A stretch of DNA of 64,000 nucleotides from an uncultured Rhodospirillales bacterium (lineage in GTDB: Bacteria > Pseudomonadota > Alphaproteobacteria > Acetobacterales > Acetobacteraceae): assembly GCA_903844135.1 (NCBI GenBank), contig CAIMSN010000103.1:1-64000 (forward strand). The letters are read 5' to 3'. Numbering within the stretch: position 1 is the stretch's first letter; the number at the start of each line of letters is the position of its first letter. Below the pieces are notes generated by a model, which saw only the letters and a program-made list of their open reading frames with translations, was not told where the DNA came from and ran no database searches. The translations under genes and the position numbers were made by a program. Positions 13,134 through 36,135 of this stretch are shown here, piece after piece.

Positions 13134-13345
13134 AGCGGTTTCCTCAGCGACAGGCAGACACGACTGTCACGATGAAGCAATGACTATGCCACCAACTGAT
13201 CCAGCGATCCTCCCCGCAGAGCTTCCGACCTGTATTGTGACATTTACGACACGGAATGGACGGGCTGGAGCGTCGCCGACCAGGCCGCTCTTATCAATCC
13301 ATCAATCTCTGGCCGCTAAATTTCCTCCGCCGGGAGGAGCTCGCT
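13134..13345. other. Intergenic region between TonB receptor and prophage-edge glycosyltransferase
   Basis: A 212-base region between divergent genes, so it must hold promoters for both. I saw no convincing -35/-10 pair, no operator palindrome and no copy of the tRNA-Ser 3' end that would mark an attachment site. This is the left boundary of the lower-G+C island. Confidence 0.5.
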
Positions 13346-19791: not shown

Positions 19792-19973
19792 TGCGCTGGA
19801 ATACCGTCTGTCAAGGTACGATCGGTCGTGGGGATCGCAAGCGAACAGAGTCCGAAGATCATCGGATCGGAAAGCCCGTTCAAGGCGGCGATCCTGTACC
19901 ACTGGGTAGCGTCGCCGAGCTCGGCCGCGGCAACGGAATACAGGTTCGTGCCAGCTATCTGAATCGTCTTCAT
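19788..19973 (-). CDS. Tail protein X-like LysM-domain protein
   Basis: A 61-residue protein consisting of one LysM-like fold: TIQIAGTNLYSVAAAELGDATQWYRIAALNG, with the family Trp in the second helix. P2 gene X codes for the same short LysM protein that joins tube and baseplate hub. Too short to have more domains. It overlaps the D-like gene by four bases and follows the U-like gene by 16 bases. Confidence 0.78.
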   Translation of the reverse strand: MKTIQIAGTNLYSVAAAELGDATQWYRIAALNGLSDPMIFGLCSLAIPTTDRTLTDGIPAQ

Positions 19974-19989
19974 GGCTCTCCTCTCGAAC

Positions 19990-22073: not shown

Positions 22074-22098
22074 CCCTTTTTCCTCAAGTCGGTCGCTT

Positions 22099-22586: not shown

Positions 22587-23020
22587 AGGCGGTTCCTCTG
22601 GCTGGCGAAGAAGCCCACAGTCTGCTTCACGATATTTTCTGCCTGGTAATGCCCCGAGCTGGTCAAGTTCAAGGAGACGCCAACGAACTCGTATGTACTC
22701 GTCGAGCCGTTCGCCTCGGCGACATACTGATAGATCGTCCCCGAGCCGATGACACCTGCATTCCAGAACGCTGCCTCGATCGCCGAAACGAGATCGTCCA
22801 AAGCGGACGACCCGCGATCGACCTGAAATTGCCCCCTCCATCCCGCTGGGGTATTGAACTCGATCGGCACGCTGTTCAACGGATCCGACCGCTGCTGACG
22901 CACCTGCTGATTGGCCTGAAATCCGGTAACGTCGCGCAGATCGAGCCGGCTTCCGTTCCAGAGCAAGACCACCTGACAGTCTCGACCGATACTATAGGGA
23001 TTTACCAAGATTTGCTCCAA
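22583..23020 (-). CDS. Tail tube protein
   Basis: A 145-residue protein directly after the sheath gene, the place of P2 gene FII. It starts MEQILVNPYSIGRDCQVV and has a beta-rich body with VPIEFNTPAGWRGQFQVDRG, SAIEAAFW and YEFVGVSLNLTSSG, consistent with a hexameric tube-forming fold of the Hcp/gpV tube superfamily. Length is normal for contractile tail tubes (about 140-175). The gene starts 32 bases after the sheath stop and overlaps the chaperone start. Confidence 0.78.
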   Translation of the reverse strand: MEQILVNPYSIGRDCQVVLLWNGSRLDLRDVTGFQANQQVRQQRSDPLNSVPIEFNTPAGWRGQFQVDRGSSALDDLVSAIEAAFWNAGVIGSGTIYQYVAEANGSTSTYEFVGVSLNLTSSGHYQAENIVKQTVGFFASQRNRL

Positions 23021-23052
23021 TGTCGGCTAATTCGGGACCGCATCCGTCGATC

Positions 23053-24624
23053 TTAAGCGCCCTGGCTACCGCCGGTACTGACAGTGACGCTCTGGCCGCC
23101 TTGCAGATTGACAATGAACTTCTCGTTGATCCCCTGGTACCGCACCTGCACATCCGCCTGGACGTATCCAAGCGAAGTGCGGGCCTGGGAATTGTTCGAT
23201 GCGTCACAGACCACAGCATACGGCAACGTTCCGTCAACGCTGCCAAGGATATTCTGCTGCAGCAGGCTCGACAGGTAGCCGAGAAGCGTCGCCCTGATAT
23301 TGGAAAGCAACGTTGCATTGATAACGGCGCCGACATAGCCGCCCATACCTGCGGCGAGCGTTCGCGCAATGAAGTTCGTCATCCTCGTGTAGCTGTCGCC
23401 GGCAACGACAGCGTTGCTCGAACTATTGTGCCCGCAGCGAACCGCCCAGTAAGAGCCGCCTGGCGCCGGGTTGCAGATGACATCGATTCCCGCGGCGAAC
23501 AACGCTTCGAGCTCGGCGCCCGAATACGTCAAGGCCTGGCCGCTTGAAGCCAGACCGCTCTTCTGACTGCCGATGATCCCTGCAAGACGTTTATTAAGAC
23601 TTGATCTCTCCGGCGATAGGTTGGCCAGGCACCCTGCCGCGAACCCCTGCGGACTAACCAAACGGGTCTGAGCGTTCGCCTGATCGAACCAATAAAGCCA
23701 ATCGCCGAACATCAGTTTCGCCGCGAAACTGTCGAGCCCGACCTGCTGCTTCGCCGTAACCGCCGAATTGATATCCTGCCCACTCGCTCCGGCAAGGACC
23801 ATGTAGATCCCCTCGGACTCCCCAAAACTGCTTTGGACCGTCCATTGCTGGGGATCGGAGCAGTCCGATATCACGCCCACCGCGCAAGCCTGTCCACGGA
23901 GCGCATACATCCCGGTCCTCACGAGACTGTCGAGCCCGATCAACGTCGACGCACCGACATTGTCGGCACCGTCGGTACCATTGAGAAGGTACTGACCTGA
24001 GATGGACGTGGGCGCCGTGCCGGTCGCAGTTCCCGCTACCGCTATACAAAGCGCGGATGGTCCGCGCGTCGCGCTCGTACCGTTATTGACCGCGCGTGCC
24101 ACGTTACTCCAGAATATGGCATTCCCCTGACTAGCGTCGAGATTGTCGAAGACCTCTGCGAGCTGCCCCGGCATCTGCAGAGTGAGTTTCCAGCTTCCCG
24201 ATCGGGAGCCGGCGCCCAAAGTGACCCCAATGAGGTTGCCACGCGAGCCTGTGCAGACCGCGGTCAACAGCAACGGGTAGCCGGCTGTCGAATATAGCAA
24301 TGCGTAGTTTGCCGCGACATCGCTCCCGTCGGTGACCCGAATCCCGACAAAGGAGGATGCGCCCTGCTGTTCGGCACAGGCGATCGGGGTGCCCAGATCG
24401 TAAGTTTGCGTACGCAAGGAGCCGAAGGCGACGACGTAGTCGGCCGTGCCGCCAAGGACCACAGGCTGATTCACTGGCCCCCACGACGCGGTGCCGACGA
24501 CGCCGATCCGATCAGTCGGAACGCCATTCAAAGCGAGGCTTTGGGGCGAAGCGATCTGGATATACAGATCCGGCACGATGAGCGCCGCCGTGTTGATGGA
24601 GCCGGCCTGGGTTATGTTTGCCAT
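23053..24624 (-). CDS. Tail sheath protein
   Basis: A 523-residue contractile sheath subunit. The N terminus has the sheath hallmark of a loop followed by GVPTDRIGVVGTASWGPVNQP and the VVAFGSLRTQ segment; the middle contains LIGVTLGAGSRSGSWKL and an insertion domain; the C-terminal core shows YWAVRCGHNSSSN, SYTRMTNFIARTLAAGMGGYVG and QNILGSVDGTLPYAVVCDASNN. Sheath length and order (followed by the tube gene) fit P2 FI and Mu L. Its presence defines the virion as myovirus-like. Confidence 0.88.
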   Translation of the reverse strand: MANITQAGSINTAALIVPDLYIQIASPQSLALNGVPTDRIGVVGTASWGPVNQPVVLGGTADYVVAFGSLRTQTYDLGTPIACAEQQGASSFVGIRVTDGSDVAANYALLYSTAGYPLLLTAVCTGSRGNLIGVTLGAGSRSGSWKLTLQMPGQLAEVFDNLDASQGNAIFWSNVARAVNNGTSATRGPSALCIAVAGTATGTAPTSISGQYLLNGTDGADNVGASTLIGLDSLVRTGMYALRGQACAVGVISDCSDPQQWTVQSSFGESEGIYMVLAGASGQDINSAVTAKQQVGLDSFAAKLMFGDWLYWFDQANAQTRLVSPQGFAAGCLANLSPERSSLNKRLAGIIGSQKSGLASSGQALTYSGAELEALFAAGIDVICNPAPGGSYWAVRCGHNSSSNAVVAGDSYTRMTNFIARTLAAGMGGYVGAVINATLLSNIRATLLGYLSSLLQQNILGSVDGTLPYAVVCDASNNSQARTSLGYVQADVQVRYQGINEKFIVNLQGGQSVTVSTGGSQGA

Positions 24625-24627
24625 CCT

Positions 24628-24804
24628 TCAGTGCTCCTGATTGGCCGGAGACCCTTCGGCCGGCAATATCGTTGGAATGACGAATGCCGCCTTGCCACCG
24701 TTCAGGATTGCTGTAATCGCAACCGGATCCTGAATCAGATCGCCTTTGTTGTAGACGCCAAAGGCGTGAAGCACGACAAGCGCTGATGGCAGTGGTCTGT
24801 TCAT
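24628..24804 (-). CDS. Small phage protein upstream of the sheath gene
   Basis: A 58-residue protein starting at ATG 24804, with no signal or membrane segment. It begins MNRPLPSALVVLHAFGVY, contains the GDLIQDPVAITAILNGGKAA segment and ends PANQEH. The frame fills the gap between the large neck/glycosidase-like gene (10 bases upstream) and the sheath gene (three bases downstream), and composition matches the neighbours. Small proteins of this size commonly precede sheath genes in Mu-like phages; I do not recognise a family. Confidence 0.6.
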   Translation of the reverse strand: MNRPLPSALVVLHAFGVYNKGDLIQDPVAITAILNGGKAAFVIPTILPAEGSPANQEH

Positions 24805-24814
24805 GTCCGTCCCG

Positions 24815-26722
24815 TCAGTTAATGAGGATTATGTCGGGTTTGGTCGACTGCGAAACGGCCAACGACAGCGCGTTGCCGATCGCCGCACAGCGTGTCGCAT
24901 CCGACCTTTGCGCCGTATAAGTCGGCATCAGCCAGCCGCCTTCAGCGAGTTCGTTCCAGGCATAGATGAGGCCGACCTGCGCCGGACAACTTACGGGATG
25001 GCCGACAATGTATTGGACGAGGTCGCCTACATGACCCGCCAGCGCGTCGCTCGTCGCCGTTGCGTAGAAGTTCTCGGGCGTGAGGCTATTCGATATTGGA
25101 TAGAAACTCTGCGGGGTCTCGATCAGGGGGCGCTGATCCCACCCGCTCATCGCAGTCGGAACCATCGGAAAGCCGGTCCTGCTGCGCGCGGCCCAATCAT
25201 CAGCAGCCGCGCTCGTAAGCGCACTATAGGGCTGCTCCGATCCGTTCAAACGAGGCACGGCGTAAGCTCCGGCAGCATCGGCGCCGGCTACCTGCGCCGC
25301 CTCCACGTTCGAGTAGTCGACAATACTGGCCCCGGAGAGCCAAACGATATAAGGATTTTTGCCCCCGGCCAACTGGACCTGCCGTCGGATCGTCAGGACC
25401 GCCTCCGCGACCCCACCCGCAGGAAGGCCGGCCAACTGGGCAGGGCTGGAGTCGATGGCAAAATAGAGCGGCCTGCCATCCAGGACCGTCATGTAGTCCG
25501 GCTGAGTCATCATTTGGATATCGCGGAGCAAAGGCGGCTGATCCTCGCCGCCCGCTCCCCAGTTCGAGGTCTGGCCGACCATGCAGAATCGCAGCCGTCC
25601 TCGGCTTGCGCTACTCAGGTAAAGTTGCAGCGCCAGGCTGAGTGAATCGTCAGGCCGATAGCTATCGAACGCCCAGAAGCTGAGGCCGGCCTGCAAGGCG
25701 GCGGCAATCTCCGCATCCATAGTCGACTGGGTCGCGAGCGGCCAGGAGGCTATCCCATTTTCCAACACCGCATTCGGCGGAAGTCGGAAATTGTACGCTT
25801 TTGGAGATAGGGCAGCGGCACATTGCCTGTCGATGGCATTCGCCGGATCGTACCAGGCGTCAAAACGAATTGCCCCGAGCGGCGGAATGATCAGCCTGGC
25901 CGACGGCTCCAGACAACTGAACCCAACGGTCGCTCCCGAGACCTCGAGCCTGCCGATCCCGAAGGCCATCTGCGAACTCGACATCGTCACAGTCGTCGGG
26001 TATTCGACCGTATAGTTCAGGTTACGACGATAGAGGTTCGCATTCTCGGATATGTCCGTTTCGAACGTCTCCCGATACCTCAATCGGGCCGAAGACCCGT
26101 CCGCAAGCGGAAACCAGTCCATGGCGGAAAGCTTCTGGTCGATCGCCGAGCAAAGCACGTCACGCGCCGCAGGCGTCGCAGACCAGACCGCGATCATCAC
26201 GCCCTGCTCCTGCCGCCGCGTCTCCATTATCGATGTCCCGCTGCCAACGATGCGGACCGAGACTTGCAATGTCGCCGTCTGAATGAGGTTGCCTTGCGCG
26301 GTGGCACTGGGGATCTCCAGGGCCAGCGCCGAGGCGACGGTCTCCAGCGTATCCATCGCCAAGACCTGTCTCGCATAGGCGACACCATCGACGATCAGTC
26401 CAACCGTCTGGCCAACCATGCAGGTCCCGGAGAGCGTCACTGTCGAGCCGTCCACCGTGGCCGTAATCGTCGGGGCAACGACCGCCAGGGGCTGCCACGT
26501 CCTGCCATAACGAGATGTATTCTTCGTACTATGGTCACAACTGAATACTGTGACAGTATCCGATCCGCTCCCGAGATCGGTGTTCAAAGTGCGGTTTGAC
26601 GGCCACCCTCGATATATCTTGACCACCGTCGCAGTCACGCTGTCGCTGGTAACACCACCGGGATAGACGACGCTCTCGATGAGTTCACAGAGCGCGTTTT
26701 CCACATCGGAGACGTCTGCCAC
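24815..26722 (-). CDS. Neck-type protein fused to a glycoside-hydrolase-like domain
   Basis: A 635-residue protein. GTG 26722 has a GGGGAG Shine-Dalgarno eight bases upstream and begins VADVSDVENALCELIESVVYP; the longer open frame runs through the previous gene and is discarded. Residues 1-240 (VKIYRGWPSNRTLNTDL, TVTVFSCDHSTKNTSRY) look like a head-tail connector or tail completion module. Residues about 300-635 resemble a TIM-barrel glycosidase of the GH99/WbsX-like kind: LSFWAFDSYRPDDSLSLAL, RPLYFAIDSS, PYIVWLSGASI, VPTAMSGWDQRP and the acid motif LIYAWNELAEGGW near the end, whose Glu is a candidate catalytic residue. Probably a virion-borne surface-polysaccharide hydrolase; activity is inferred. 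Confidence 0.6.
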   Translation of the reverse strand: MADVSDVENALCELIESVVYPGGVTSDSVTATVVKIYRGWPSNRTLNTDLGSGSDTVTVFSCDHSTKNTSRYGRTWQPLAVVAPTITATVDGSTVTLSGTCMVGQTVGLIVDGVAYARQVLAMDTLETVASALALEIPSATAQGNLIQTATLQVSVRIVGSGTSIMETRRQEQGVMIAVWSATPAARDVLCSAIDQKLSAMDWFPLADGSSARLRYRETFETDISENANLYRRNLNYTVEYPTTVTMSSSQMAFGIGRLEVSGATVGFSCLEPSARLIIPPLGAIRFDAWYDPANAIDRQCAAALSPKAYNFRLPPNAVLENGIASWPLATQSTMDAEIAAALQAGLSFWAFDSYRPDDSLSLALQLYLSSASRGRLRFCMVGQTSNWGAGGEDQPPLLRDIQMMTQPDYMTVLDGRPLYFAIDSSPAQLAGLPAGGVAEAVLTIRRQVQLAGGKNPYIVWLSGASIVDYSNVEAAQVAGADAAGAYAVPRLNGSEQPYSALTSAAADDWAARSRTGFPMVPTAMSGWDQRPLIETPQSFYPISNSLTPENFYATATSDALAGHVGDLVQYIVGHPVSCPAQVGLIYAWNELAEGGWLMPTYTAQRSDATRCAAIGNALSLAVSQSTKPDIILIN

Positions 26723-26772
26723 ACAACAATCTCCCCAAACCGAGTAAAGAAAGCAGCTAAGCGCCTCGGCCT

Positions 26773-27414
26773 CTAAGTCGTGGCGAGACCGACGAGAAGT
26801 TTCCACCCGAACGGCGAGAAATCTGCACTGATGATTTCGTATTCCTGCAGGATCGGGTCTCGAAGTCGCATTCCGAACGATAGTTCTAGTCCTGGTATGG
26901 GCGGGGCCAACACCTCGTAAAAGGCCGCCCTCGTATCGCTCGGAAGCTTTGTGACGTCGGTCCCGGCACGAGAGCGTGCGCTCATGCTGACCGGCCAGCC
27001 ACCTGCAACGATTGCGTCTGTTTCCGCCGTCCGACCGCCATATCCGTTGGCCCCGGCGCTTGTCTGAACGTCGGACACGAGGAAATCGACCGTCTGCGTG
27101 CACAGCACGCAGAGCGCCGGCCGCAAAGGCTCGACACGCGCGACGAAATGCGTGTCTTCTCCGACCAGATAGTCGCCCTGCCGGACAAGTGTCGGATCTG
27201 CGAGAAGCGAAGCGTAAGCATGATCCGGCCGTGCCGTCGACAGGAGCTTGAAGTCCGGAGCAACATCGAACGCACAATAGAGTGTGCCAAACGGGGGCCC
27301 CGCGACAGGACCCGAGAGACCCGATGGACGAAACAGCAATTCGGCTACACCGTTAATAGCTGCCGACTTCGCAAGGCCGTTGGCAATTCTTTTATTAAGC
27401 AGGGACTGTAGCAA
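26773..27414 (-). CDS. Putative head-tail connector protein
   Basis: A 213-residue protein in the head-completion region. It begins MLQSLLNKRIANGLAKSAAI, contains the GPPFGTLYCAFDVAPDFKL and DYLVGEDTHFVARVEPLRPALC segments and a beta-rich C terminus (LGMRLRDPILQEYEIISADF-like). Proteins with this GDYLVG...FVA pattern sit between capsid and sheath genes in other alphaproteobacterial phages. No catalytic motif is visible. Predicted to join head and tail; assignment is from order and weak resemblance. Confidence 0.55.
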   Translation of the reverse strand: MLQSLLNKRIANGLAKSAAINGVAELLFRPSGLSGPVAGPPFGTLYCAFDVAPDFKLLSTARPDHAYASLLADPTLVRQGDYLVGEDTHFVARVEPLRPALCVLCTQTVDFLVSDVQTSAGANGYGGRTAETDAIVAGGWPVSMSARSRAGTDVTKLPSDTRAAFYEVLAPPIPGLELSFGMRLRDPILQEYEIISADFSPFGWKLLVGLATT

Positions 27415-27429
27415 GACCGTTCCCCGTCA

Positions 27430-27978
27430 TCAGGCGATGGAAATTACGCCGCCGTTATTCCACAGTTGCCCGCTCCCGGCGGCTGGCTCGGCCTGCGGGA
27501 GCATGGCCATGACGACTGTCGACCCAAACGCCTGACTCTGTGCCGACAGGCTGCCTCCGGAAAACTGGAGGGCTACCCCCGAAATCACCTGACGCCCGTC
27601 AGGCGTGGTCGCGATGACCGCACCTGCAGGCCAAAGCCTGATCGAGCCTAGATTTCGAAGATCCGTGAAGGAGAGATTGAAGCTCCCTCCCTGCGTGGAT
27701 ATCGTCGCCCCCGCACCAATGACGACGGGGTGCTGAAGCGGCATCCAGAACAGCAGGCTACCGGCACTCGGCGAATCAAAGACCCCGACAAAATTGAGCG
27801 TGCCCCAAGCCGTCCCTGCTGGACCCGCCGTGCCGGATCCAACATCTGACGTGGTTCCTCCGTTCAGATCCCCGAGAACGAATGGCCGGCGTCCGTACGA
27901 AGGATCGGTCGGCTCGGAAAGGATACCGGCCTGGACCGAGCTCCCATAGCCCAGCCAGCCATTCAGTATTGTCATCAT
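27430..27978 (-). CDS. Phage structural protein, head-completion region
   Basis: A 182-residue protein. ATG 27978 is chosen because of a GGAGGAGG Shine-Dalgarno eight bases upstream; the long open frame beyond it overlaps the previous gene. The sequence is Gly/Ser-rich and beta-prone: ILNGWLGYGSSVQAGILSEP, FVLGDLNGGTTSDVGSG, GSLLFWMPLQHPVVIGAG, RLWPAGAVIATTPDGRQVISG. This suggests a beta-sandwich decoration or connector protein. I do not recognise a family. Confidence 0.55.
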   Translation of the reverse strand: MMTILNGWLGYGSSVQAGILSEPTDPSYGRRPFVLGDLNGGTTSDVGSGTAGPAGTAWGTLNFVGVFDSPSAGSLLFWMPLQHPVVIGAGATISTQGGSFNLSFTDLRNLGSIRLWPAGAVIATTPDGRQVISGVALQFSGGSLSAQSQAFGSTVVMAMLPQAEPAAGSGQLWNNGGVISIA

Positions 27979-28004
27979 GATGCGGACCTCCTCCCGCGAA
28001 AGAC

Positions 28005-28406
28005 TTAGATGACGATCGACGCCTGGCTCATGAGTCCTGGACCCGGAGGAACGCCAATGAAGCTCGCGAGCCGTCGGCACCAACTCTCGAAGAGTCCGAT
28101 GCGGTCGCCGATCTCCGACGGGTTTCTCTTCCAAACTGCAGCCTCGCTCGTGTCGAGGCTCAAGGCCGTGTCGGGAATGCCTTGTTCGAGACTGTAAAGC
28201 GCAGCAAGCTTCTGCCGGACCACCTGGTATTCCGATCCGGACATATTGCTCAACCTGAACTCGAGCGTTCCATACGCTTCGAAAAAGCGCCAAGACTGGA
28301 ACCCGCTGGCGCCCGACCCATACGACGGATAGCCGCAAAAGCGTCTGACATCGACACGCTCGGCATCCGAGAGCGGATCCGTGGAAAGCCCGCTAGAGCC
28401 GGACAT
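28005..28406 (-). CDS. Putative head completion/connector protein
   Basis: A 133-residue protein beginning MSGSSGLSTDPLSDAERVD, where ATG 28406 follows a GGAGGAG Shine-Dalgarno. The helical pattern DVRRFCGYPSYG, RFFEAYGTLEFRLSNMSGSE and LYSLEQGIPDTALSL recalls small gp6-like connector proteins that bind below the portal, a position that fits: it is the first gene after the capsid. Family call is tentative. Confidence 0.55.
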   Translation of the reverse strand: MSGSSGLSTDPLSDAERVDVRRFCGYPSYGSGASGFQSWRFFEAYGTLEFRLSNMSGSEYQVVRQKLAALYSLEQGIPDTALSLDTSEAAVWKRNPSEIGDRIGLFESWCRRLASFIGVPPGPGLMSQASIVI

Positions 28407-28475
28407 TGAATCTCCTCCCATGAATAGCGAGAGAGAAGAACAACGATGCGTTCTTCATCCCTCTCCTCTTAATCT

Positions 28476-29849
28476 CTAGAGACTTTCGATAACGACCCCC
28501 CGCTTCAGGTAGCTGTTCGTCGCAGTCGGAATGATGCTCGTGTTCGCGGTCGCGTCGGTCGGCAACGCATACCCGCCGATCCAGTACCAGGACTGCGCGA
28601 TGATCTGTTTCAGACGATCGAGCGGCTCACGCGTGACCATGACAACATTGTCGACCTTTTCCATGAGCGACTTTTCCGCGTCGGGGATGTCGCTGTGCCC
28701 GGCATCCGCATAGTCGCCCTCAATGAGCGCGCCCTTACCGCAGACGATCGCCCGATGGATCGCTCCGGCACCAAGCGAGGTCTGCTGCGGCGCCTCGGTG
28801 GTCGGGATGAACCTCACGCCGAGGAGCTCGACGACCGATCCCGACTGGTACGTCTCGGTCCCGTAGGCGCCGCGATAGAGATATTTGAAGTCACCATCAC
28901 GGAACAGCCCAAGCATCTGCTGGTCGTCCAAGTAGCAATGATAGGCGCCGTCGACGGTCGGCACATTGTTCATTCTCAGCGCCGCGACAGCGGACAACAC
29001 CGTCTGGATTCCGAGCGTGTCGCCGGGAACATAGCTCGCGGCACCATAGGTTCCGGTCGGTGCGACGAGAGCTGCGGTTGTCAGGCGTCCATTCGGTCGC
29101 AACACCAGAGGGGCTGTCGCTGCGATGACTGGCTGCGATAGGGCGCCGTCTGAGGTCGTGACGTTCGTGGAGAAGGTGAGTTGACCCGAAATACCGTTCG
29201 GTGCGGTCGAGATATTCAACGGGTCTGCGACACTGCTGACGAGTGTGTAAGCGTTGCTCCCGACCGTCACGGTCATGCCGAGGGTCGTCCCGACCGGTGC
29301 GACCTGGCCGTAGTTGTTCAAGACGTTCTGAAAGCCTCTGATATCGTCCAGAGAGACGGTCTTGCCTGCTGAGCCGAGTGCGACATTGACCCGGCTATTA
29401 CCGCCGAGGTAACCGCCCACACCGTTGCTCGCGCCGCCAAAGAGTGCATTTCGCGCAATACGATCAAGCGACTGCATCGCCTGCACGCCATTGGTCCGGG
29501 CATTGGCGAGAAACTGTCCGGCGATTCCCACCCCCTCGCTCACCATATTCAGGTCGATGGTGTCTCCGTACTGGTTGATCGTCAGGGTATATTGCTCGAC
29601 AGTCCAACTCGACGGGCTCATGCCGTTATCGAAGTTGGTGTTCCCGGTGGCGCTCATCGGCGCAGTGACTGGTGCCTTGAGGCCCTTTCGCGTCTTGGTG
29701 ACGGTCTCACCGATCCGGTTGGGAAATACCTCGCGATCGGCAATAGACCTGAAGCTCAGGCGCGACTGAAGTCCGTCTTGAAATTCCCGGGCAAGAAAGC
29801 CCTGCTGAATGATCGGCTGAAGTTGTGTCGGAAAATTCTGGATCGGCAT
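28476..29849 (-). CDS. Major capsid protein (HK97-fold type)
   Basis: A 457-residue protein after the scaffold gene. N-terminal arm and E-loop region are seen in REFQDGLQSRLSFRSIADR and KTRKGLKAPVTAPM, the spine helix in ANARTNGVQAMQSLDRIAR, and A-domain sequence in DTLGIQTVLSAVAALRMNN and VDGAYHCYLDDQQMLGLF, ending in LPTDATANTSIIPTA. Pattern and length resemble P22 coat / N4 gp56-like HK97-fold capsids. No protease gene precedes it; instead there is a separate scaffold gene, as in P22. Confidence 0.78.
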   Translation of the reverse strand: MPIQNFPTQLQPIIQQGFLAREFQDGLQSRLSFRSIADREVFPNRIGETVTKTRKGLKAPVTAPMSATGNTNFDNGMSPSSWTVEQYTLTINQYGDTIDLNMVSEGVGIAGQFLANARTNGVQAMQSLDRIARNALFGGASNGVGGYLGGNSRVNVALGSAGKTVSLDDIRGFQNVLNNYGQVAPVGTTLGMTVTVGSNAYTLVSSVADPLNISTAPNGISGQLTFSTNVTTSDGALSQPVIAATAPLVLRPNGRLTTAALVAPTGTYGAASYVPGDTLGIQTVLSAVAALRMNNVPTVDGAYHCYLDDQQMLGLFRDGDFKYLYRGAYGTETYQSGSVVELLGVRFIPTTEAPQQTSLGAGAIHRAIVCGKGALIEGDYADAGHSDIPDAEKSLMEKVDNVVMVTREPLDRLKQIIAQSWYWIGGYALPTDATANTSIIPTATNSYLKRGVVIESL

Positions 29850-29930
29850 GCGCGATGATCGCCTTTTGAGAGAATGGGGGACATCAATGTCGGCCGGGGG
29901 TCAACAGGGCCAAGTATCCGACGCGCTGCG

Positions 29931-30476
29931 TCAGCGTTTGCGGGCGAGCAGGCGATCGCGTTCTGCCTTCCAGGCCTCGCGAGATAGTTCGCGCGCGTCG
30001 ATCGCGACGGGCTTCGCCGCCTGGGGGGTCCGGTGTGTCTGGCTCGTTGTCCCCGGCGCCAAGGCAGCGACGTCGGCCCCGAAAAGGTAGGGCTTACGAT
30101 CCCGGAGCGAAGCGATCGCTTCGTCGATGCCGATGATATCCCCATTCTCCCCGAAGTTGATCGCACCGAGGTCGGCAAGCTTCAGGGCATCGAGATCGAG
30201 GATGCCGGCACGGGTCGCATGCGCCCTCAGTTCGGCCTGAAGTACGTGACCGCGGGCTTCCTCCCGCACCGCTGCAATCGCATCATCGCGCTCGCGAGCC
30301 GCCGTGGACACTGCGGCATCCCGCTCGCTCATGGCGATGCGTGCCTGCTCTCGGTAGCGGGCAACCTCGCGACGCAATTTCTTTTCGGCATCGGTGATCT
30401 CCCGTGGCGCGTCCGCAGCGACAACCGGGGTGGCTTCCTCGGCGAGATCGATGGACTCTTGGCTCTGCTCTGCCAT
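29931..30476 (-). CDS. Scaffolding protein
   Basis: A 181-residue protein between portal and capsid. It has an acidic N terminus (ESIDLAEEATPV), a long charged coiled coil (residues about 30-80, EKKLRREVARYREQARIAMS), a region with LDALKLADLGAINFGENGD (similar to DUF4355-type phage scaffolds) and a basic C-terminal helix SREAWKAERDRLLARKR that could bind the capsid. This layout is standard for scaffolding proteins released after procapsid assembly. Confidence 0.72.
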   Translation of the reverse strand: MAEQSQESIDLAEEATPVVAADAPREITDAEKKLRREVARYREQARIAMSERDAAVSTAARERDDAIAAVREEARGHVLQAELRAHATRAGILDLDALKLADLGAINFGENGDIIGIDEAIASLRDRKPYLFGADVAALAPGTTSQTHRTPQAAKPVAIDARELSREAWKAERDRLLARKR

Positions 30477-30570
30477 AGGCTGGACCGGTCCTTCCTGTAG
30501 CGCCGACGGCTCGACGCCACATGGCGCCGGGTCCGCTCTCGGCGGAAACTTGGTTGTCGGAACGACGCGC

Positions 30571-32004
30571 CTACGCGATCAGCGTGGCGTCCTCGCCGTC
30601 CGTTTCGATCGCAGTTGCCTCAGTCAGGCCGTAGAGCGGCGCGACGATGGCGTAGGCCTGCGGTCTGTCGATCACCCCGGCGGCTATGAGCGTGGCGACG
30701 CTCGAGGCCTGAGCCTGCCTGTCGCTGAAGCTCGCCGGGAACCAGCTCGGCCAGGCAAGCGCAAGCCCGTGCGGATCGAGGTCGCGATACGAGATGCCGG
30801 CGACGATCAGCCCATCGCGCAACCGGCTGGATGCACGGCACAGCATGTTCAATAAGGCCAGTAGGCCACCATCGCCGTACGAAATCCTGAGGCGGTCCGC
30901 CAGCCAGATAAGACCCTGACACATCATCTCGATCGCCCGGCCGCTTGGCGCTACCCCTGCACGATCCCCATGCGCCCGATTGCCATGCATCGCTTCCAGG
31001 GCAATCGCCCGAAGCTCCTTGACGTGGGCCAGTACCGCAGCGGCGGCGTTGCCATTGATCTCGAGAAGCTTGGCGTCACCTTCCGGTGGCAGAGTCAACG
31101 CGGACGCAACGCCTCCAACCCGGGACGGAGCCGCTCCGCCGATACAAGCCGACGGGTCCTTCAACACCAGGGTTGGATCCGAGCCATATTTCAGGCCCCG
31201 TCCGGCTTGGGAAAGCAGATAATCAACCTCGATGACCGTGTCGATCGCGGCGGCGAAGGTGCACATCCCATCCGCACCGTCCGGCTCGTGTCCAGAACCC
31301 CCGGAGATGTTGCGGATCCAGACAATGGGAACGAAGCCGAGCCCATGGACAACGCTTCGATCCGGATCGACCGCCATCGCCGCATAGCCGTCACCGATCG
31401 GAACCGGCTTGAACCAGAGCTCCGCCTGATCGTCCCAGACGCGCTTGAACCAGAATATCCCGGCGTCCGGATCGACGTTAAAGCCAAGAGCAATCAGGGT
31501 CGCTGCATCGACCTTGTAGCACTCGCTGACAGAGTGAAGTTGCCGTGGGTCGTCCAGACGCCAGACCGGTGTGAGAAACTTGGTACCCATAACCGCGAGA
31601 AACGGACGGGATTTCACGATCCGCATGTGGATCGCCACAGACCCTACCGATCCACGGGTCGCCGCTTCAAGCATCGTCTCCTTCAGCCGGCACTCGGCTA
31701 CCAGCTCGTTGAGCGCCACCAAGGTACGCTGATCGCTTGCCTGTATCGTTGGCCAATGACCCTCGCTGAACAACAAGGAGACCGAATCGTCGACCACGAC
31801 CCGGCAAAGACCGGTCCTGACGGACGGCCGTCGCTCGTCGAGAGGAATATATTCCCCGGCTTCGCTTCGCTCTTTGGAAAACGGATAGATGAGCTGATCG
31901 TACTGCCGACCCTCCAGGATGGCCTCAAACGCCAGAAGCTTGAAGCATCGGACGGGCATGTCCGCATCCCTGGGCATACGCGACTGCAGAGAGAGCCAAT
32001 CCAT
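30571..32004 (-). CDS. Portal protein
   Basis: A 477-residue protein directly after the large terminase (stop-to-start gap of four bases). It shows the portal layout: N-terminal clip/wing (CRVVVDDSVSLLFSEGHWP, RLKETMLEAATRGSVGSVAIHMR), GFVPIVWIRNI, the stem/crown helices around DTVIEVDYLLSQAGRGL and the C-terminal AYAIVAPLYGLTEATAI region typical of SPP1 gp6-like portals. It forms the dodecameric DNA gate and docks the terminase. Length is within the family range. Confidence 0.75.
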   Translation of the reverse strand: MDWLSLQSRMPRDADMPVRCFKLLAFEAILEGRQYDQLIYPFSKERSEAGEYIPLDERRPSVRTGLCRVVVDDSVSLLFSEGHWPTIQASDQRTLVALNELVAECRLKETMLEAATRGSVGSVAIHMRIVKSRPFLAVMGTKFLTPVWRLDDPRQLHSVSECYKVDAATLIALGFNVDPDAGIFWFKRVWDDQAELWFKPVPIGDGYAAMAVDPDRSVVHGLGFVPIVWIRNISGGSGHEPDGADGMCTFAAAIDTVIEVDYLLSQAGRGLKYGSDPTLVLKDPSACIGGAAPSRVGGVASALTLPPEGDAKLLEINGNAAAAVLAHVKELRAIALEAMHGNRAHGDRAGVAPSGRAIEMMCQGLIWLADRLRISYGDGGLLALLNMLCRASSRLRDGLIVAGISYRDLDPHGLALAWPSWFPASFSDRQAQASSVATLIAAGVIDRPQAYAIVAPLYGLTEATAIETDGEDATLIA

Positions 32005-32008
32005 ACGA

Positions 32009-33973
32009 TCATCGCTCCATCAGACTGCCAATCAGAACGCCGCTGTTCGTCTTCTGCCGGCCATACAAGTAATACCCACTCGCGTCGACCAGATGATCGA
32101 AGCCTTGCGTCTTGTCCGGCTCGGTCGTTCCCTCGCGAAACACCAAACGCTCGTAGGCCTCGATCGATTTGACGCAACGCGCATCAACGGTTGCAACAAT
32201 TGTCCCGTCGGCCGATCGAAACTGCCGGTTCATGACGTTTATTCGATCCCTCACCGAGGGATGCGACCTTAACGCCGACACGTTGAAACCCTTCTCCCGC
32301 AGGATACCGATGTCGGTCCGCCCGGCCGACGAGCTGCGGCGCTGCGACCCAGCCGGATCCGGATAGATCGTGATATGGTCGACCGTCCTCCGCCCCGGCT
32401 CAAAGCCGTCACGGCCGAACCGGCTTATGATCTCAGCCGCCATTTCGTCGGTATTTGAAGTCGGCATAATAATTTCGTCGACTTGACAGACCGTCTCGCC
32501 AAATTCCTGCCAGACCGTTGCAGACATCGGGTTGACGTTAAAGTCCATTCCGACATGCAAGGGTCTTGCGATATCGAAAGGCTTTGTGACCACGTTCTCC
32601 GCCCTGTTGAACGCATAGATGACCCGTCCCGCATAAGTCTCGAAGCTGGCGCAATACTCTTGACGGAATGTCCTGCTGTCCATTTCGCGCCTTGCTGCCA
32701 CCAATTCCTCCGAGGGTACGTTCCCGCCGTCTTCGGTTGTGAATAGAAACGAACGATAGTCGGGATCACCGCCTGGTTGACCGAGCAGATAGCAGTCTCG
32801 GAAATGATCGAAGCCCTTCGGCGTGCCGATGAACAAAGCATGCCCACGGGTGGTCGACAGCATCGGTCGTATCACCTCCAGCCAGGCGCTTGGGCGACAA
32901 TCCGCCCATTCGTCTCCACCGAAGAACCACAATCCGGAACCACGCAAATTGTCGCAGGCGTCCAGCCCGACCAGACGGATGATATGTCCGGAATGCAGCC
33001 TGAGCACGCAGAGCGTCTCGTTCGGTCTGCTAGCCAACCAGGACCGCGGAATCGCTACCTTCAACCTGCCCCACATGACGCGCTTGGCCTGGAGGAACGT
33101 CGGTGCTCCATACCAGATCTCATTCTCGATCCCGACCCCGTACTTTACAGCAAGCCTGGCCGCTCTACGGATCTCCTCGGCCATCAGGAAGGTATTATGC
33201 GTCGGTATATAGCTCTCGCTGCACAGGAAGAGGCGCGATTTGCTGTCAACCTGGATGCAACGTACCGGACGGGTCTGGATTGATCTGATCGACGCGATTT
33301 GGTGCAGACCTGCGTCTGGTCCGATCCTCCAGGACACGACCCCCTCGCTCATCTGCGTTACGAGTCCAAGCGCACCGCAAAGGCGTCTGATCGAATCAAG
33401 CCGAAGCTCACGGCCTCTAACCCAGGCGCCGCGGTCGTCACAACCGCCGTAGCGCGCGACAAGTCGATCTAAGAGCGCCCGTCGCGGTTTTTCATCACGG
33501 CGTCCGCCGCGGAATTGAGTATTGATCGGCTGGCACGGCCGGATGCCCAACACCAGGTGTCGTTTGCACAGAACTCTCAGATCTCGGGTTTGAAGCAACG
33601 CCTCCACACCGGTCCTCAGGACAACACGCCAGAGATGCTCGTCATCGGCGACGATCCTCGTACCACCCTCGAACACGATCTCGTTGCAAGGCCTGCCCAG
33701 CATGATGTCGGTTGCGAAGACGACGTGGCATATGTTACCGCCTTCATCAAACAATCTATCACCGACCTGAATGGCCCCCATCGTTGTCCATCCATCCGGA
33801 GAGGGAAGGCGAGTGCCGAGGCAAAGCGCCTTGCCGAACCGCCGTCCGCAGACTGCGACACGAAAGCGCGTTGAGTCCTTCCAACCAGCCTGATAGATGG
33901 TCCATTGAGCGTCTGTGAGGGACGGTCGACTCTCAGCAACGGTTCGACGTCGCCCTGGGTGGATCGTCGTCAG
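32009..33973 (-). CDS. Terminase large subunit precursor with in-frame intein
   Basis: A 654-residue precursor. From the upstream TGA to the intein there is no ATG, GTG or TTG; the CTG at 33973 has AAGGAG seven bases upstream and is taken as start. N-extein residues 1-48 end VAVCGRRFGK; intein residues 49-260; C-extein residues 261-654 begin TFLMAEE. Splicing gives GRRFGKT, a correct Walker A, and a 442-residue protein. Walker B is in GLWFFGGDEWAD; RNase H-like nuclease acidic residues lie in HVGMDFNVNPM and DHLVDASGYYL. The enzyme packages DNA into the prohead. It overlaps the small-subunit gene by 41 bases. Confidence 0.85.
   Translation of the reverse strand: MTTIHPGRRRTVAESRPSLTDAQWTIYQAGWKDSTRFRVAVCGRRFGKALCLGTRLPSPDGWTTMGAIQVGDRLFDEGGNICHVVFATDIMLGRPCNEIVFEGGTRIVADDEHLWRVVLRTGVEALLQTRDLRVLCKRHLVLGIRPCQPINTQFRGGRRDEKPRRALLDRLVARYGGCDDRGAWVRGRELRLDSIRRLCGALGLVTQMSEGVVSWRIGPDAGLHQIASIRSIQTRPVRCIQVDSKSRLFLCSESYIPTHNTFLMAEEIRRAARLAVKYGVGIENEIWYGAPTFLQAKRVMWGRLKVAIPRSWLASRPNETLCVLRLHSGHIIRLVGLDACDNLRGSGLWFFGGDEWADCRPSAWLEVIRPMLSTTRGHALFIGTPKGFDHFRDCYLLGQPGGDPDYRSFLFTTEDGGNVPSEELVAARREMDSRTFRQEYCASFETYAGRVIYAFNRAENVVTKPFDIARPLHVGMDFNVNPMSATVWQEFGETVCQVDEIIMPTSNTDEMAAEIISRFGRDGFEPGRRTVDHITIYPDPAGSQRRSSSAGRTDIGILREKGFNVSALRSHPSVRDRINVMNRQFRSADGTIVATVDARCVKSIEAYERLVFREGTTEPDKTQGFDHLVDASGYYLYGRQKTNSGVLIGSLMER
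33194..33829 (-). other. Class 3-like intein inserted in the terminase Walker A motif
   Basis: Residues A1-N212. A1 replaces the usual Cys/Ser (ALCLGTRLPSPDGWTTM), block B is GTRIVADDEHLW with H65 and W67, block F is RPVRCIQVDS with C191, and block G is YIPTHN with T210, H211, N212, followed by Thr+1. W67, C191 and T210 are the Trp-Cys-Thr triplet of class 3 inteins. The middle holds a decayed homing-endonuclease remnant (RALLDRLVARYGG, intein residues about 117-130) in which the expected acidic DTDG-type motif is lost. Confidence 0.85.
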
Positions 33974-34385
33974 AAGCGATCTCCTTAATCAAGCCGGCCG
34001 CGTCGAGTGGGAGCGCGGCAGCGCCCCTTGCATGATACTTATCCGGCCTACTTCCCTTCAGCAGCATGACGAGTAGCGGATCGCTATAGCGCCGCAGGAT
34101 GATCGGCTGATTCGTCTCCGGATCCAGCACGAGCTTGCCGGCCTGAAAGAGTTTCTGTTCGATACCATCCAGAGCTCGCCGCCAGGCTTCTGCCTCCAGG
34201 CGGTCTACCGCCTCATCCATGGCTTCTAAGTAAGCTTGTCCGAAATCCTCGTCGACCTTCCGCAACGCACCCACCTCACGGCGCGTCATCTCCGATGCGT
34301 GACAGGCAAGAGAGAGATTACCGCTCTTTGCGAGTTCGCTGAGAAAAAGCTCTTGCCGCATCGCCGCTGCGGTGTCCGGTACCAC
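33933..34385 (-). CDS. Terminase small subunit
   Basis: A 150-residue protein using GTG 34385; the frame is open further upstream but that part overlaps the previous gene and is not protein-like. It has the small-terminase helix-turn-helix pattern: FLSELAKSGNLSLACHASEM, TRREVGALRKVDEDFGQAYL, followed by EAVDRLEAEAWRRALDGIE and a C-terminal region LRRYSDPLLVMLLKGSRPDKY, which is a common motif of this family. It recognises pac/cos DNA and hands it to the large subunit. ATG 34361 is an alternative start. Confidence 0.75.
   Translation of the reverse strand: MVPDTAAAMRQELFLSELAKSGNLSLACHASEMTRREVGALRKVDEDFGQAYLEAMDEAVDRLEAEAWRRALDGIEQKLFQAGKLVLDPETNQPIILRRYSDPLLVMLLKGSRPDKYHARGAAALPLDAAGLIKEIASDDDPPRATSNRC
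33971..33987 (-). promoter_or_regulatory. Shine-Dalgarno and CTG start of terminase large subunit
   Basis: AAGGAG (33981-33986) lies seven bases before CTG (33971-33973). This is the only start-like codon with a ribosome site in the open interval between the in-frame TGA upstream and the intein. It lies inside the small-subunit gene. Confidence 0.55.
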
Positions 34386-34426
34386 AGCGTGGGAAGGTCT
34401 CCCCAGACCCTCCGAGCCGCGCGGGC

Positions 34427-34834
34427 TCAGTTGTAGCGCACCGCGCCGACCCTGCGGCCGCGCGACGCCGTGGAAGCGAGCAAGTTGCTGCGAACCGGCG
34501 GGCTGTCCTCGAACCTGCGAACGATCTCCTCTCGCTTCAGAGCAAGCAGGATACGGTTGCGGAGTGCCTCCGGAAGCATTCCGAGCTTCGTGAGGTTTGC
34601 TACGCCGTAGCGCTTGATCGGTACACAGCGGATGACGACGTCCTGCATCGGCAATCCACTCTGCGCCAGATCGGACCAATGGTCGGGGACGACATCCGCT
34701 CGGTGCCGTGCGTTGGCTTGGCTTTCCAAGCGAAGCAACGTGAGTTCTTCGTCTGCTGTCGCCTGCACCACGTAGATCGAGGTGCCACAGGCAACTACAT
34801 CTCCAGACGAGATCTGGACCGAGTTCGTGAACAT
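34427..34834 (-). CDS. Uncharacterised protein opening the late operon
   Basis: A 135-residue protein between the leader terminator and the small terminase gene. It starts MFTNSVQISSGDVVACG (GTG three codons earlier is possible). The N-terminal half is beta-rich (GDVVACGTSIYVVQATADEE, DVVIRCVPIKRYG), the C-terminal half helical (LPEALRNRILLALKREEIVR). The pattern of a small beta-barrel followed by a helix faintly recalls PemK/MazF-fold proteins, but no catalytic residues are clear and no antitoxin gene adjoins. Best left unnamed. Confidence 0.5.
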   Translation of the reverse strand: MFTNSVQISSGDVVACGTSIYVVQATADEELTLLRLESQANARHRADVVPDHWSDLAQSGLPMQDVVIRCVPIKRYGVANLTKLGMLPEALRNRILLALKREEIVRRFEDSPPVRSNLLASTASRGRRVGAVRYN

Positions 34835-34861
34835 CGAAAGCACCTATCGCCTGAGGCCAAC

Positions 34862-34890
34862 AAAAAACCCGCCAGGTTTCCCTGGCGGGC
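34862..34890 (-). terminator. Intrinsic terminator in the leader of the phage operon
   Basis: On the minus strand the stem CCCGCCAGG / CCTGGCGGG with a GAAA tetraloop is followed by six T (34862-34867). It is directed leftward, directly before the first gene of the morphogenesis operon and just after a consensus promoter. No T run follows on the other strand. Confidence 0.85.
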
Positions 34891-34912
34891 GCATCAATTC
34901 GAGTATGAGAAA

Positions 34913-34941
34913 CTTATAGATGATCTTGGGTCCGCCGTCAA
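34913..34941 (-). promoter_or_regulatory. Sigma-70-type promoter for the phage morphogenesis operon
   Basis: On the minus strand TTGACG (34936-34941) and TATAAG (34913-34918) are separated by exactly 17 bases, with an A/T-rich stretch upstream (TTAAATAACG). Expected transcription start is near 34906, only about 17 bases before the terminator stem. It lies in the gap between two leftward genes. Confidence 0.75.
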
Positions 34942-35032
34942 TCGTTATTTAACCGTTATGGACAGTGGCCTGTGGCTCAAACAGGCAGCTCGCCGCGCTC
35001 GGCCGCACCGATGCGGACTCAAGCATGCAAAC

Positions 35033-35575
35033 TCACGTCGGCGGACGTTTCAACTTTGCACTATCGATCCTGTCGTAGAGTTCGGTCAATTGCTGCAGAA
35101 GCAAGACCATCTGGGCCGCTACCTTCTTGCGTCCGTTCACATCGCCAGGCAACAGCATTGCCGCCATTGCTGAAAAGGACATCTCGTCCACGAGAAGAAG
35201 TCGAAGACGAACTTCGCCGCAGAGGCCAAGGCTGTTTCGGACAATCTTGCATCGTCCGATAGCTTCGGTGCGCGACAACATAGCGGCATGCAGATCAGGC
35301 GCCTTTCCCGACCGTTTCGTATCAGGGTCATGCGCACCGATGATTCCCATAACGTAGTCTTTGTACCAGCGCTGTGCGGAGTCCGTCTGATCCTGAGCAA
35401 TATCCCCCGTCTTCGAAAGCAGGGTCAGGCCGCCGATAACACGCTGTACATCTTCTTCGACACGTAATATCTGTCCCTTGCCTATCCGTTCGCGGGGAGC
35501 TCGTTCCGCCCGGAAATGGTTTGGGACGACCACCGCCGGCGAAGCCGCTGTCGGGTACGTCTCTGTGATCATCAT
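35033..35575 (-). CDS. Phage-associated protein, possible regulator (DUF6456-like)
   Basis: A 180-residue protein. Its pattern of LTLLSKTGDIAQDQTDSAQRWYKDYVMGI near residue 50-80 and a C-terminal helix pair (LLLVDEMSFSAMAAML, KVAAQMVLLLQQLTELYDRI) resembles alphaproteobacterial prophage proteins with a helix-turn-helix-like end, such as the DUF6456 group. It lies immediately upstream of the late promoter and is a candidate activator or antiterminator by position only. No metal-binding or catalytic motif is visible. ATG ATG at the beginning: either codon could start. Confidence 0.5.
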   Translation of the reverse strand: MMITETYPTAASPAVVVPNHFRAERAPRERIGKGQILRVEEDVQRVIGGLTLLSKTGDIAQDQTDSAQRWYKDYVMGIIGAHDPDTKRSGKAPDLHAAMLSRTEAIGRCKIVRNSLGLCGEVRLRLLLVDEMSFSAMAAMLLPGDVNGRKKVAAQMVLLLQQLTELYDRIDSAKLKRPPT

Positions 35576-35649
35576 TCTGATTATCTCGCGCTAGAACCTG
35601 CTGAACCCAGCATGCATGCCGATCGGCCATGGAACAGACCGACGCGATT

Positions 35650-35931
35650 TCAGGTGTGGATCGACGACGCGGGCTGATGCGGCACGAAATGCACGATCGC
35701 GCTCCAGGTAATCGGATGCCCGGCTGGGAGAGGAGCCGCCCCCGCATCCTCCCTGTCGCGTGTGCACACAGTTCGCACTGACTGTCGGAGAATATGCTTC
35801 GCGCGCCGCTGCGCGAAGCTCCTGCTGACCCCGAGCTGCTGTGCGGCCTTCCGCAGGGTGACACCATGGTGATCGAGGAGTGAGACGAGCCGGCTATCCT
35901 GGTCGGCAGTCCATGTCAAAGCGCGTGGCAT
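35650..35931 (-). CDS. Small helix-turn-helix DNA-binding protein
   Basis: A 93-residue protein starting MPRALTWTADQDSRL at ATG 35931. Residues 5-50 form a Myb/GcrA-like helix-turn-helix: WTADQDSRLVSLLDHHGVTL then KAAQQLGVSRSFAQRRAKHI. The rest contains LPAGHPITWSAI, a motif found in small prophage regulators of alphaproteobacteria. A palindrome overlapping its likely promoter suggests autoregulation. It is the rightmost phage-type gene. Role as regulator of the island is inference. Confidence 0.6.
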   Translation of the reverse strand: MPRALTWTADQDSRLVSLLDHHGVTLRKAAQQLGVSRSFAQRRAKHILRQSVRTVCTRDREDAGAAPLPAGHPITWSAIVHFVPHQPASSIHT

Positions 35932-35963
35932 ACGGGCACCCAAAAGAAGCTGATGACCCCCGT

Positions 35964-35992
35964 AGACTAACGAAGCGTTAGTCGCTGTACAA
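35964..35992 (-). promoter_or_regulatory. Tentative promoter for the HTH gene
   Basis: TTGTAC (35987-35992) and TAGTCT (35964-35969) on the minus strand with 17-base spacing, 33 bases before the HTH gene start codon. The -10 matches consensus weakly. The palindromic operator candidate overlaps the spacer and the -10. Confidence 0.4.
35965..35983. promoter_or_regulatory. Perfect palindrome, candidate operator
   Basis: GACTAACG-AAG-CGTTAGTC: eight-base arms with a three-base spacer, located between the HTH gene and the A/T-rich region to its right. Symmetry and overlap with a promoter fit a dimeric regulator site; the HTH protein is the obvious candidate. Not followed by a T run, so not a terminator. 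Confidence 0.6.
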
Positions 35993-36000
35993 GAAAACAA

Positions 36001-36135
36001 TCGCCCGGAATGACGATATTTTAACGTTTTTCACTGGGGCGCGGGCTGAGCCACGGCCGCGGTGAGCCCTCTGAGCGTCCCGATCAGCACATCGGTGGAG
36101 CCATCAGAACGACCCGCAAAGCCTCCATTCCCCCC
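36001..36135. other. Intergenic region between prophage island and tRNA-Ser area
   Basis: Contains an A/T-rich patch (about 36016-36032, TATTTTAACGTTTTTC) at its left end, then G+C-rich sequence of chromosomal type. This seems to be where composition changes, so the right edge of the island may lie here. No gene or direct repeat recognised. Confidence 0.4.

Follow-up and report, generated by a model that had tools for sequence, protein, structure and literature searches.

A probable class 3 intein with a degenerate endonuclease splits the Walker A motif of a large terminase in Acetobacteraceae

We analyzed a stretch of 64,000 nucleotides (the window) from an uncultured Rhodospirillales bacterium of the family Acetobacteraceae (GenBank assembly GCA_903844135.1, contig CAIMSN010000103.1, positions 1 to 64,000). 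Within it, we focused on a minus-strand gene, terL, that encodes the large subunit of a terminase in a cluster of head and tail genes and whose Walker A motif (P-loop) is divided by a segment of 212 residues. Taking the evidence together, we hold it highly probable that a class 3 intein splits the TerL Walker A motif and has lost its endonuclease. A model that saw only the letters and a list of open reading frames had proposed an intein at 33194-33829, from Ala1 to Asn212 (the sequence-only reading); our coordinates, flanks and PDB matches agree with this placement, and the residues it named (A1, W67, C191, T210 and N212) are correct.

The inserted segment interrupts TerL at the K|T junction of Walker A

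The terL reading frame is uninterrupted from stop to stop (32009-33988 (-), 659 codons), ruling out an intron. The precursor occupies 32009..33973 (-), with its stop at 32009 and an uncertain start, for which we assumed the CTG at 33971-33973. PHROGs assigns the frame to the terminase large subunit (6.9e-30 and 5e-26); Pfam gives only Terminase_6C, at 3.2e-4, just under the family cut-off. The segment identified from sequence, PDB matches, alignment and a fold model (33194..33829 (-), 212 aa, A1 to N212) is preceded by VAVCGRRFGK and followed by TFLMAEE, which places the insertion at the Lys-Thr bond of the Walker A motif. The first residue after it, Thr+1 (33191..33193 (-)), is the Walker A Thr and would also serve as the C-extein nucleophile.

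By sequence, the M. chimaera and M. smegmatis class 3 DnaB1 inteins (6rix and 6bs8) are the nearest solved proteins. In a phmmer search of the PDB, the E values were 3e-26 for 6rix, 1.5e-25 for 6riy, and 1.5e-24 for 6bs8, and the matches were split around an insert, covering residues 1-70 and about 175-212. A profile of seven orthologous inteins again ranked the class 3 DnaB1 inteins first, at 1.7e-37. The two matching parts correspond to an N-terminal Hint part (residues 1-70, 33620..33829 (-)), which matches 6rix and 6bs8 and carries block B H65 to W67 at 33629-33637, and a C-terminal Hint part (residues 176-212, 33194..33304 (-)), which carries C191 at 33257-33259, T210 at 33200-33202, and N212 at 33194-33196. 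An AlphaFold2 model built from 32 aligned inteins has a mean predicted local distance difference test score (pLDDT) of 94.4. Its closest structural neighbors are 6bs8 (Z 23.0, root-mean-square deviation (rmsd) 1.1 over 125 residues), 6rix (Z 22.6) and 6riy (Z 22.5); the next structures score Z 19.1 or lower, and the best Foldseek E value is 3.6e-11.

The sequence-only reading had proposed checking the K|T junction against intein-free terminases, and homologs do join at that very point: they read GRRFGKT with no gap. We searched 200 genomes of the same family with the precursor and 15 matched. Six carry an intein-bearing terL (G000, which is the window's genome, G056, G132, G181, G086, and G001), and three carry intein-free copies at four loci (G142, G169, and two in G001) with uninterrupted P-loops and 60-68% identity to TerL over the C-extein; five (G015, G020, G047, G127, and G171) matched through a different intein, in a gpA terminase, and G070 and G174 only through weak terminase similarity. 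Among the best 80 of 434 viral TerL homologs, the P-loop is uninterrupted in 77 (35 by pattern and 42 by eye, one of them with a masked residue), two contain an intein (L033 and L034, the latter being the same terL as L006), and one begins downstream. Of the three related terL genes in Endobacter medicaginis (G001; L006, L016, and L024), only one holds the intein.

The segment carries the class 3 residues

Passages in PMC5050341 and PMC5222942 define class 3 inteins by Trp at B:12, Cys at F:4 and Thr at G:5 (the WCT set) and by the lack of a nucleophile at residue 1; in MchDnaB1, the working residues given in part of PMC7664689 are C124, H65, and T143, plus W67. Residue 1 of the window intein is Ala rather than Ser, Thr or Cys, as it is in 8/8 orthologous terL inteins, which rules out class 1. 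The WCT set is present as W67, C191, and T210, along with H65 (B:10), the penultimate H211, the terminal N212, and Thr+1. The numbering of H65 and W67 is identical to that in MchDnaB1; C191 and T210 are displaced by the insert.

These residues (H65, W67, C191, T210, H211, and N212) are invariant in 32/32 aligned inteins, a count to be read with the way in which the alignment was made. Its rows were chosen, being the window plus 8 of the 13 loci of one search and 23 of the 52 of another; H65 and W67 lie within the pattern that fetched many of them, and the intein ends were set by an HN motif, such that the invariance of H65, W67, H211, and N212 is partly built in. C191 and T210 were not part of the fetching patterns; the HN rule allowed seven residues at G:5, which leaves T210 nearly free of this bias, and C191 is free of it. 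The selection of rows weighs against our reading, as do the missing Hint call described next and, where they arise below, the points on the endonuclease remnant, the substitution ratios, and the start codon.

A profile search for a Hint domain, which the sequence-only reading had suggested, failed: neither Pfam nor NCBIfam calls an intein or Hint family for this intein at E<=1. Pfam Hint is also absent in the four full-length class 3-like inteins that we scanned for comparison. The missing call looks like a library gap, since full-length inteins of this type get none either, and the matches came instead from PDB sequences and folds. Given the WCT set, the lack of a residue-1 nucleophile and nearest neighbors that are class 3 DnaB1 inteins, all as first proposed, the residues and the predicted fold place the segment among the class 3 inteins with near certainty.

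We infer the splicing chemistry from proved class 3 relatives, in light of the sequence, junction, and residues seen here and the predicted fold. The unspliced precursor, with its P-loop split, should not bind ATP normally. C191 in block F would attack the Lys-Ala1 bond, the N-extein would then pass to Thr+1, and cyclization of N212 would restore GRRFGKT. By analogy with these relatives, the intein very likely splices when it is expressed. The MchDnaB1 and MsmDnaB1 inteins (6rix, 6riy, and 6bs8) share with it class 3 membership, Ala1, H65, W67, Cys at F:4, Thr at G:5, a THN end, and, as modeled, the same Hint fold (Z 22.5-23.0), with 43-44% identity over the aligned part. They differ in being chains of 139-146 residues without an endonuclease remnant, in mycobacterial DnaB, whereas the window intein has 212 residues, a half-LAGLIDADG repeat, and TerL as its host.

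The window terL lacks a standard start codon

The N-extein (33830..33973 (-)) has 48 codons if translation begins at the CTG, and the window copy contains no in-frame ATG, GTG or TTG upstream of the intein. In contrast, each of the other seven orthologs has at least one of these codons ahead of the intein. In six of them (L002, L003, L004, L005, L033, and L218), an ATG is embedded in GACGATGA; the window has GACGACGA there, with an ACG at 33965-33967 aligned to the relatives' ATG; L006 has a TTG further in rather than that ATG. Judged by eye, the ACG for ATG change is silent in the overlapping terS. Also by eye, a Shine-Dalgarno-like hexamer, AAGGAG (33981..33986 (-)), lies inside terS, 7 nt before the CTG. 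The window terL may be poorly translated, started at the CTG, or wrongly sequenced. Because there is no standard start codon, expression of this copy is doubtful, and we give an even chance to its being expressed well enough to matter. The ligated product of 442 residues expected by the sequence-only reading holds only with the CTG start (48 + 394 residues).

These data bear on the strongest rival account, in which the intein is dead or sits in a dead gene: it would be class 3 by descent, in a copy that is untranslated or unspliced, like Arth_1007. We regard this as a serious possibility that falls short of an even chance. The absent start and the terS-silent ACG favor it, as do the GC content of the cluster (61%, compared to 66-69% in its flanks) and the precedent of the Arth_1007 class 3 intein, described in part of PMC3196547. 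On the other hand, the catalytic residues are complete, the frame is open, and the CTG lies 7 nt behind AAGGAG; moreover, Arth_1007, unlike the window intein, lacks Cys F:4 and His B:10 according to the same part of that source. The TerL C-extein also has low ratios of nonsynonymous to synonymous differences (pN/pS), 0.21-0.28 in comparisons with five of six relatives and 0.42 with L006, although these and all our pN/pS values are rough because synonymous sites are near saturation. Finally, the missing start may be a single-base sequencing error. That packaging depends on splicing, as the sequence-only reading inferred, is no more than a possibility in this strain, because terL has no ATG, GTG or TTG ahead of the intein and the cluster is perhaps not an active prophage. 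The missing start makes this strain a natural comparison.

A probable half-LAGLIDADG remnant of the endonuclease

In the favored reading, the class 3 intein has lost its endonuclease, and 103 residues separate its two Hint parts. When the intein is aligned with full-length class 3-like inteins, this insert corresponds to the second LAGLIDADG repeat only; the first repeat is absent, and the second motif reads LLDRLVARYGG here compared to LIRGLMDSDGT in L027. A stand-alone model and structural alignment delimit a putative half-LAGLIDADG remnant at intein residues 110-175 (33305..33502 (-)) with no catalytic acid. Modeled alone, it has a pLDDT of 83.5 and a predicted template modeling score (pTM) of 0.58, and in VIA-align it matches I-DmoI (Z 8.6, rmsd 1.8 over 66 residues), with lower scores for PI-SceI and I-CreI. 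That Z of 8.6 is barely above the level of mere common arrangements, and LAGLIDADG proteins come first in VIA-align only: Foldseek, run on the remnant by itself, gave no match at E<=0.001, and its top rows were phosphatases and repressors. The half-LAGLIDADG identity is thus suggested by VIA-align and the sequence alignment combined. The whole-intein model aligns with PI-SceI structures over 201-208 residues (rmsd 2.5-3.3). At E<=1, Pfam LAGLIDADG_3 is not called in this intein; it is called in 4/4 full-length class 3-like inteins tested.

An active LAGLIDADG endonuclease has two motifs with acids, which this intein does not, and a strict mini-intein has no endonuclease part, while here a half repeat stays; the copy in the congener G219 would come close to that state. 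We have little doubt that the homing endonuclease is dead. With one acid-less half repeat left, and one congener without even that, the intein is very probably immobile. The sequence-only reading had described a decaying endonuclease in a mini-like, probably immobile intein. Degeneracy and likely immobility stand; what changes is the picture of the remnant, which is, as modeled, one half repeat with a confident predicted fold and not shapeless decay. Persistence of the intein would then reflect how hard it is to remove precisely from an essential motif, rather than homing.

In seven of the eight orthologous terL inteins, 95-115 residues of the insert are retained and the whole inteins have 204-224 aa. 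The eighth, L218 (G219:C1:2337500-2342500), is 153 aa long: only 44 residues lie between its Hint parts, the remnant is gone, and the WCT set is kept. Pairwise amino acid identity among the orthologs is 57-81% for the C-extein, 49-70% for Hint, and 8-40% for the insert. Compared to the low C-extein ratios given above, pN/pS is 0.28-0.66 for Hint and 0.57-1.13 for the insert; here one row, L005, was split wrongly, and its insert comparisons use only 40-46 codons. These patterns suggest that the splicing part is very probably kept under constraint while the endonuclease part drifts.

The same data speak to whether the half-endonuclease is kept for a use, as a spacer, in contacts with DNA or TerS, or in the timing of splicing, rather than as a relic. 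Its retention in 7/8 orthologs and the compact fold predicted for the window remnant fit such a role. We nonetheless consider it unlikely: the copies are so dissimilar and their pN/pS so high, and the congener copy with 44 residues between its Hint parts has kept WCT.

Two other accounts concern the nature of the segment itself. In a class 2-type mechanism, Thr+1 would attack the N junction directly and C191 would not be used; class 2 inteins likewise lack a nucleophile at residue 1, where this intein has Ala, but the WCT set is complete, the near relative Msm DnaB-1 was proved to be class 3 by mutation of Cys F:4 (in part of PMC5222942), and the predicted fold is nearest to class 3 inteins, leaving this account very improbable. 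That the segment is instead an accessory domain of the terminase, found as it is in 5/5 sampled genomes of the genus, we dismiss almost entirely, since it is exactly absent at K|T in homologs 60-68% identical, two of them in G001 beside the intein-bearing copy, 212 residues splitting the P-loop should not allow ATP binding, and the segment has a predicted Hint fold; nor was the same extra segment seen as a normal domain in homologous terminases, a possibility the sequence-only reading had raised against itself, the intein-free ones being uninterrupted.

Distribution and descent of the terL intein

The orthologous intein occurs in all five species sampled from one genus, as well as in two other genera of Acetobacteraceae. 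Its carriers include Acetobacteraceae bacterium KSS8, two uncultured Acetobacteraceae metagenome bins, Lichenicoccus roseus, and Endobacter medicaginis. A profile built from the 32 inteins matches 23/397 family genomes and, across the class, 8/385 genomes, two of which are the window's genome and a congener; some matches cover the endonuclease part only, making these counts upper bounds for class 3. The intein matches 180 phage records; named Mycobacterium phages account for 150, and the rest include phages of Proteobacteria, Acidovorax ACF1 for example.

The Hint tree places L006 beside gpA inteins with support of 51/35, which is a poor placement. In a midpoint-rooted TerL extein tree, which took 12 of many intein-free homologs and left out L218, the intein carriers form a clade with support of 100/98. 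A single acquisition followed by descent is thus suggested by the extein clade and not by the intein tree.

Comparison with known inteins

Published examples exist both of TerL inteins at the P-loop K|T site and of class 3 inteins. The mycobacteriophage TerL1-a inteins lie at the same P-loop Lys|Thr point, termed a classic insertion in a passage of PMC5050341; they differ in belonging to another TerL family (terminase_1) and to phages of Actinobacteria. The TerL intein of Caulobacter phage phiCbK, an alphaproteobacterial phage, is inserted at K|S and has no N-terminal nucleophile (from part of PMC3556154). The sequence-only reading had presented class 3 inteins in alphaproteobacterial contractile-tailed prophages as an addition to the known set; this overstated the novelty, as a nucleophile-less TerL P-loop intein from this class was in print, though it is not WCT. 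The phiCbK intein runs from P131 to N471 (341 aa), and by eye shows F in position B:12 and V in position G:5 rather than the W and T of WCT, which rules it out as a class 3 precedent. Its locus (L180:1861-2883) encodes Pro1 and a block F Cys, with the WCT Trp and Thr both lacking. The titles and opening lines of abstracts on inteins of Acetobacteraceae and on class 3 inteins of proteobacteria do not mention the inteins described here.

Five genomes of the family (G015, G020, G047, G127, and G171) contain inteins in gpA terminases (L027-L031), and the two hosts tested (G047 and G020) have Pfam GpA_ATPase and GpA_nuclease. These inteins resemble that of the window in having the W, C, T, H, and N residues in 5/5 and in being inserted just before a Thr or Ser of the ATPase domain; they differ in their length of 364 aa, in having both LAGLIDADG motifs, and in Pro1. 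One bacterial family therefore holds class 3-type inteins in three states: with a full endonuclease (364 aa, gpA), with a single folded half (204-224 aa), and without either half (153 aa). The second and third forms share a site in orthologous genes. Because these three states occur in one family, the idea that an intein first loses homing and then lingers is directly testable.

The head-tail cluster around terL

The terL gene belongs to a contractile head-tail cluster of about 22 kb (13256..36030) whose gene order is conserved in congeners. It includes terS, the small terminase subunit (33933..34679 (-), PHROGs 2e-27), which overlaps the start of terL, the portal (30571..32004 (-), PHROGs 1.1e-9), the major capsid protein (28479..29849 (-), PHROGs 5e-53), and the tail sheath (23053..24624 (-), PHROGs 2.8e-44), along with scaffold, baseplate, and probable fiber genes and several frames with no assigned function. 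One flank holds tRNA-Ser(gct), GatB, and GatA. The gene order is identical beside the same tRNA-Ser and GatB/GatA in G056, G181, and G219, the three checkable congeners (3/3); the locus in G132 could not be assessed on its 9 kb contig. The capsid gene is present in 5/5 genomes of the genus, and capsid relatives occur in 166/397 family genomes (E<=1e-30).

The sequence-only reading had called this element a contractile-tailed prophage. The contractile head-tail genes are there, but no tyrosine integrase (PF00589) was matched on the window contig or in the neighborhood of the cluster in G056, G181, and G219, and the cluster lies at the same locus in congeners. Serine integrases, transposases, and replication genes were sought only through Pfam and PHROGs scans of the larger frames, several of which had no call.

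We compared cluster and host genes in four of the five genus genomes (all but G132), using the cluster's neighbors as host genes rather than a genome-wide tree, so that the result concerns one genus. Concatenated cluster proteins group G000 and G056 against G181 and G219 by 71 columns versus 23 and 29, and the flanking host proteins favor the same quartet by 56 columns versus 23 and 28. Taken singly, 6/6 cluster genes and 4/4 host genes agree, HSP90 barely so (18, 17, and 15 columns); Hint alone is uninformative (2, 3, and 3). The capsid pN/pS of 0.11-0.18 is similar to that of GatB, 0.15-0.24. The shared locus and agreeing quartets therefore fit vertical inheritance, and the cluster seems to have been inherited in this way within the genus.

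Several observations argue against vertical inheritance. The GC content is 61% in the cluster compared to 66-69% outside it, and the cluster's other flank is not common to all. Lichenicoccus and Endobacter keep most of the genes in order, but GatA and GatB are not in the stretch read, which means that the locus differs or was not reached. Related clusters carry another terminase. In addition, the 53.8 kb Komagataeibacter phage phiKX2, which has a transposase and repressor-type genes, carries homologs of 16/24 queried cluster genes in its first 45 kb; such phages therefore exist in free form. In the phiKX2 record (LC644976), the gene annotated 'terminase small subunit' (L179:3001-4284) spans most of the TerL match and looks mislabeled, and its annotated start omits the P-loop part.

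The gene content and inheritance pattern make it a serious lead, rather than a finding, that the cluster is perhaps like a gene transfer agent (GTA). The GTAs closest to it are BaGTA and RcGTA. According to part of PMC9662315, BaGTA is likewise a capsid-tail cluster of Alphaproteobacteria that evolves together with its host, a pattern seen here in one genus. In the same source, BaGTA is described with no tail or a non-contractile one and BhGTA with a non-contractile one, whereas the window has a contractile-tail gene set. A fuller scenario, which we think improbable, is a vertically inherited, contractile-tailed, GTA-like particle whose motor would be enabled only after splicing, with an intein immobile perhaps since before the genera split, fixed, and possibly acting as a redox-sensitive gate through C191. 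Oxidative-stress sensing by a mycobacterial DnaB intein has been described (in part of PMC6195587); its transfer to this TerL intein is speculation by analogy. If the cluster were domesticated, a host-kept motor would need protein splicing, and homing could not account for the persistence of the intein. The part of this picture that is of interest, though unproved, is a packaging motor that is passed on vertically and has to splice.

Sister clusters and other inteins

Of ten sister loci examined, four (G142, G169, G386, and G294) match this TerL and the other six do not, ruling out one common terminase for all related clusters. In the place of terL, G025, G389, G022, and G060 have a frame of 441-482 aa with GGSRSGKT or GGARSGKT, and G006 has a frame of 546 aa; no terminase was recognized at the G217 locus. 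The loci with another terminase are L267-L268, L270-L271, L274, L277, and L273. Pfam calls a terminase in 3/3 of the replacement frames tested (G025, G060, and G006).

Further class 3-like inteins were seen in genes for a dCTP deaminase (L118), a helicase (L119), and a PD-(D/E)XK nuclease (L124), and by eye L120-L123 resemble these three.

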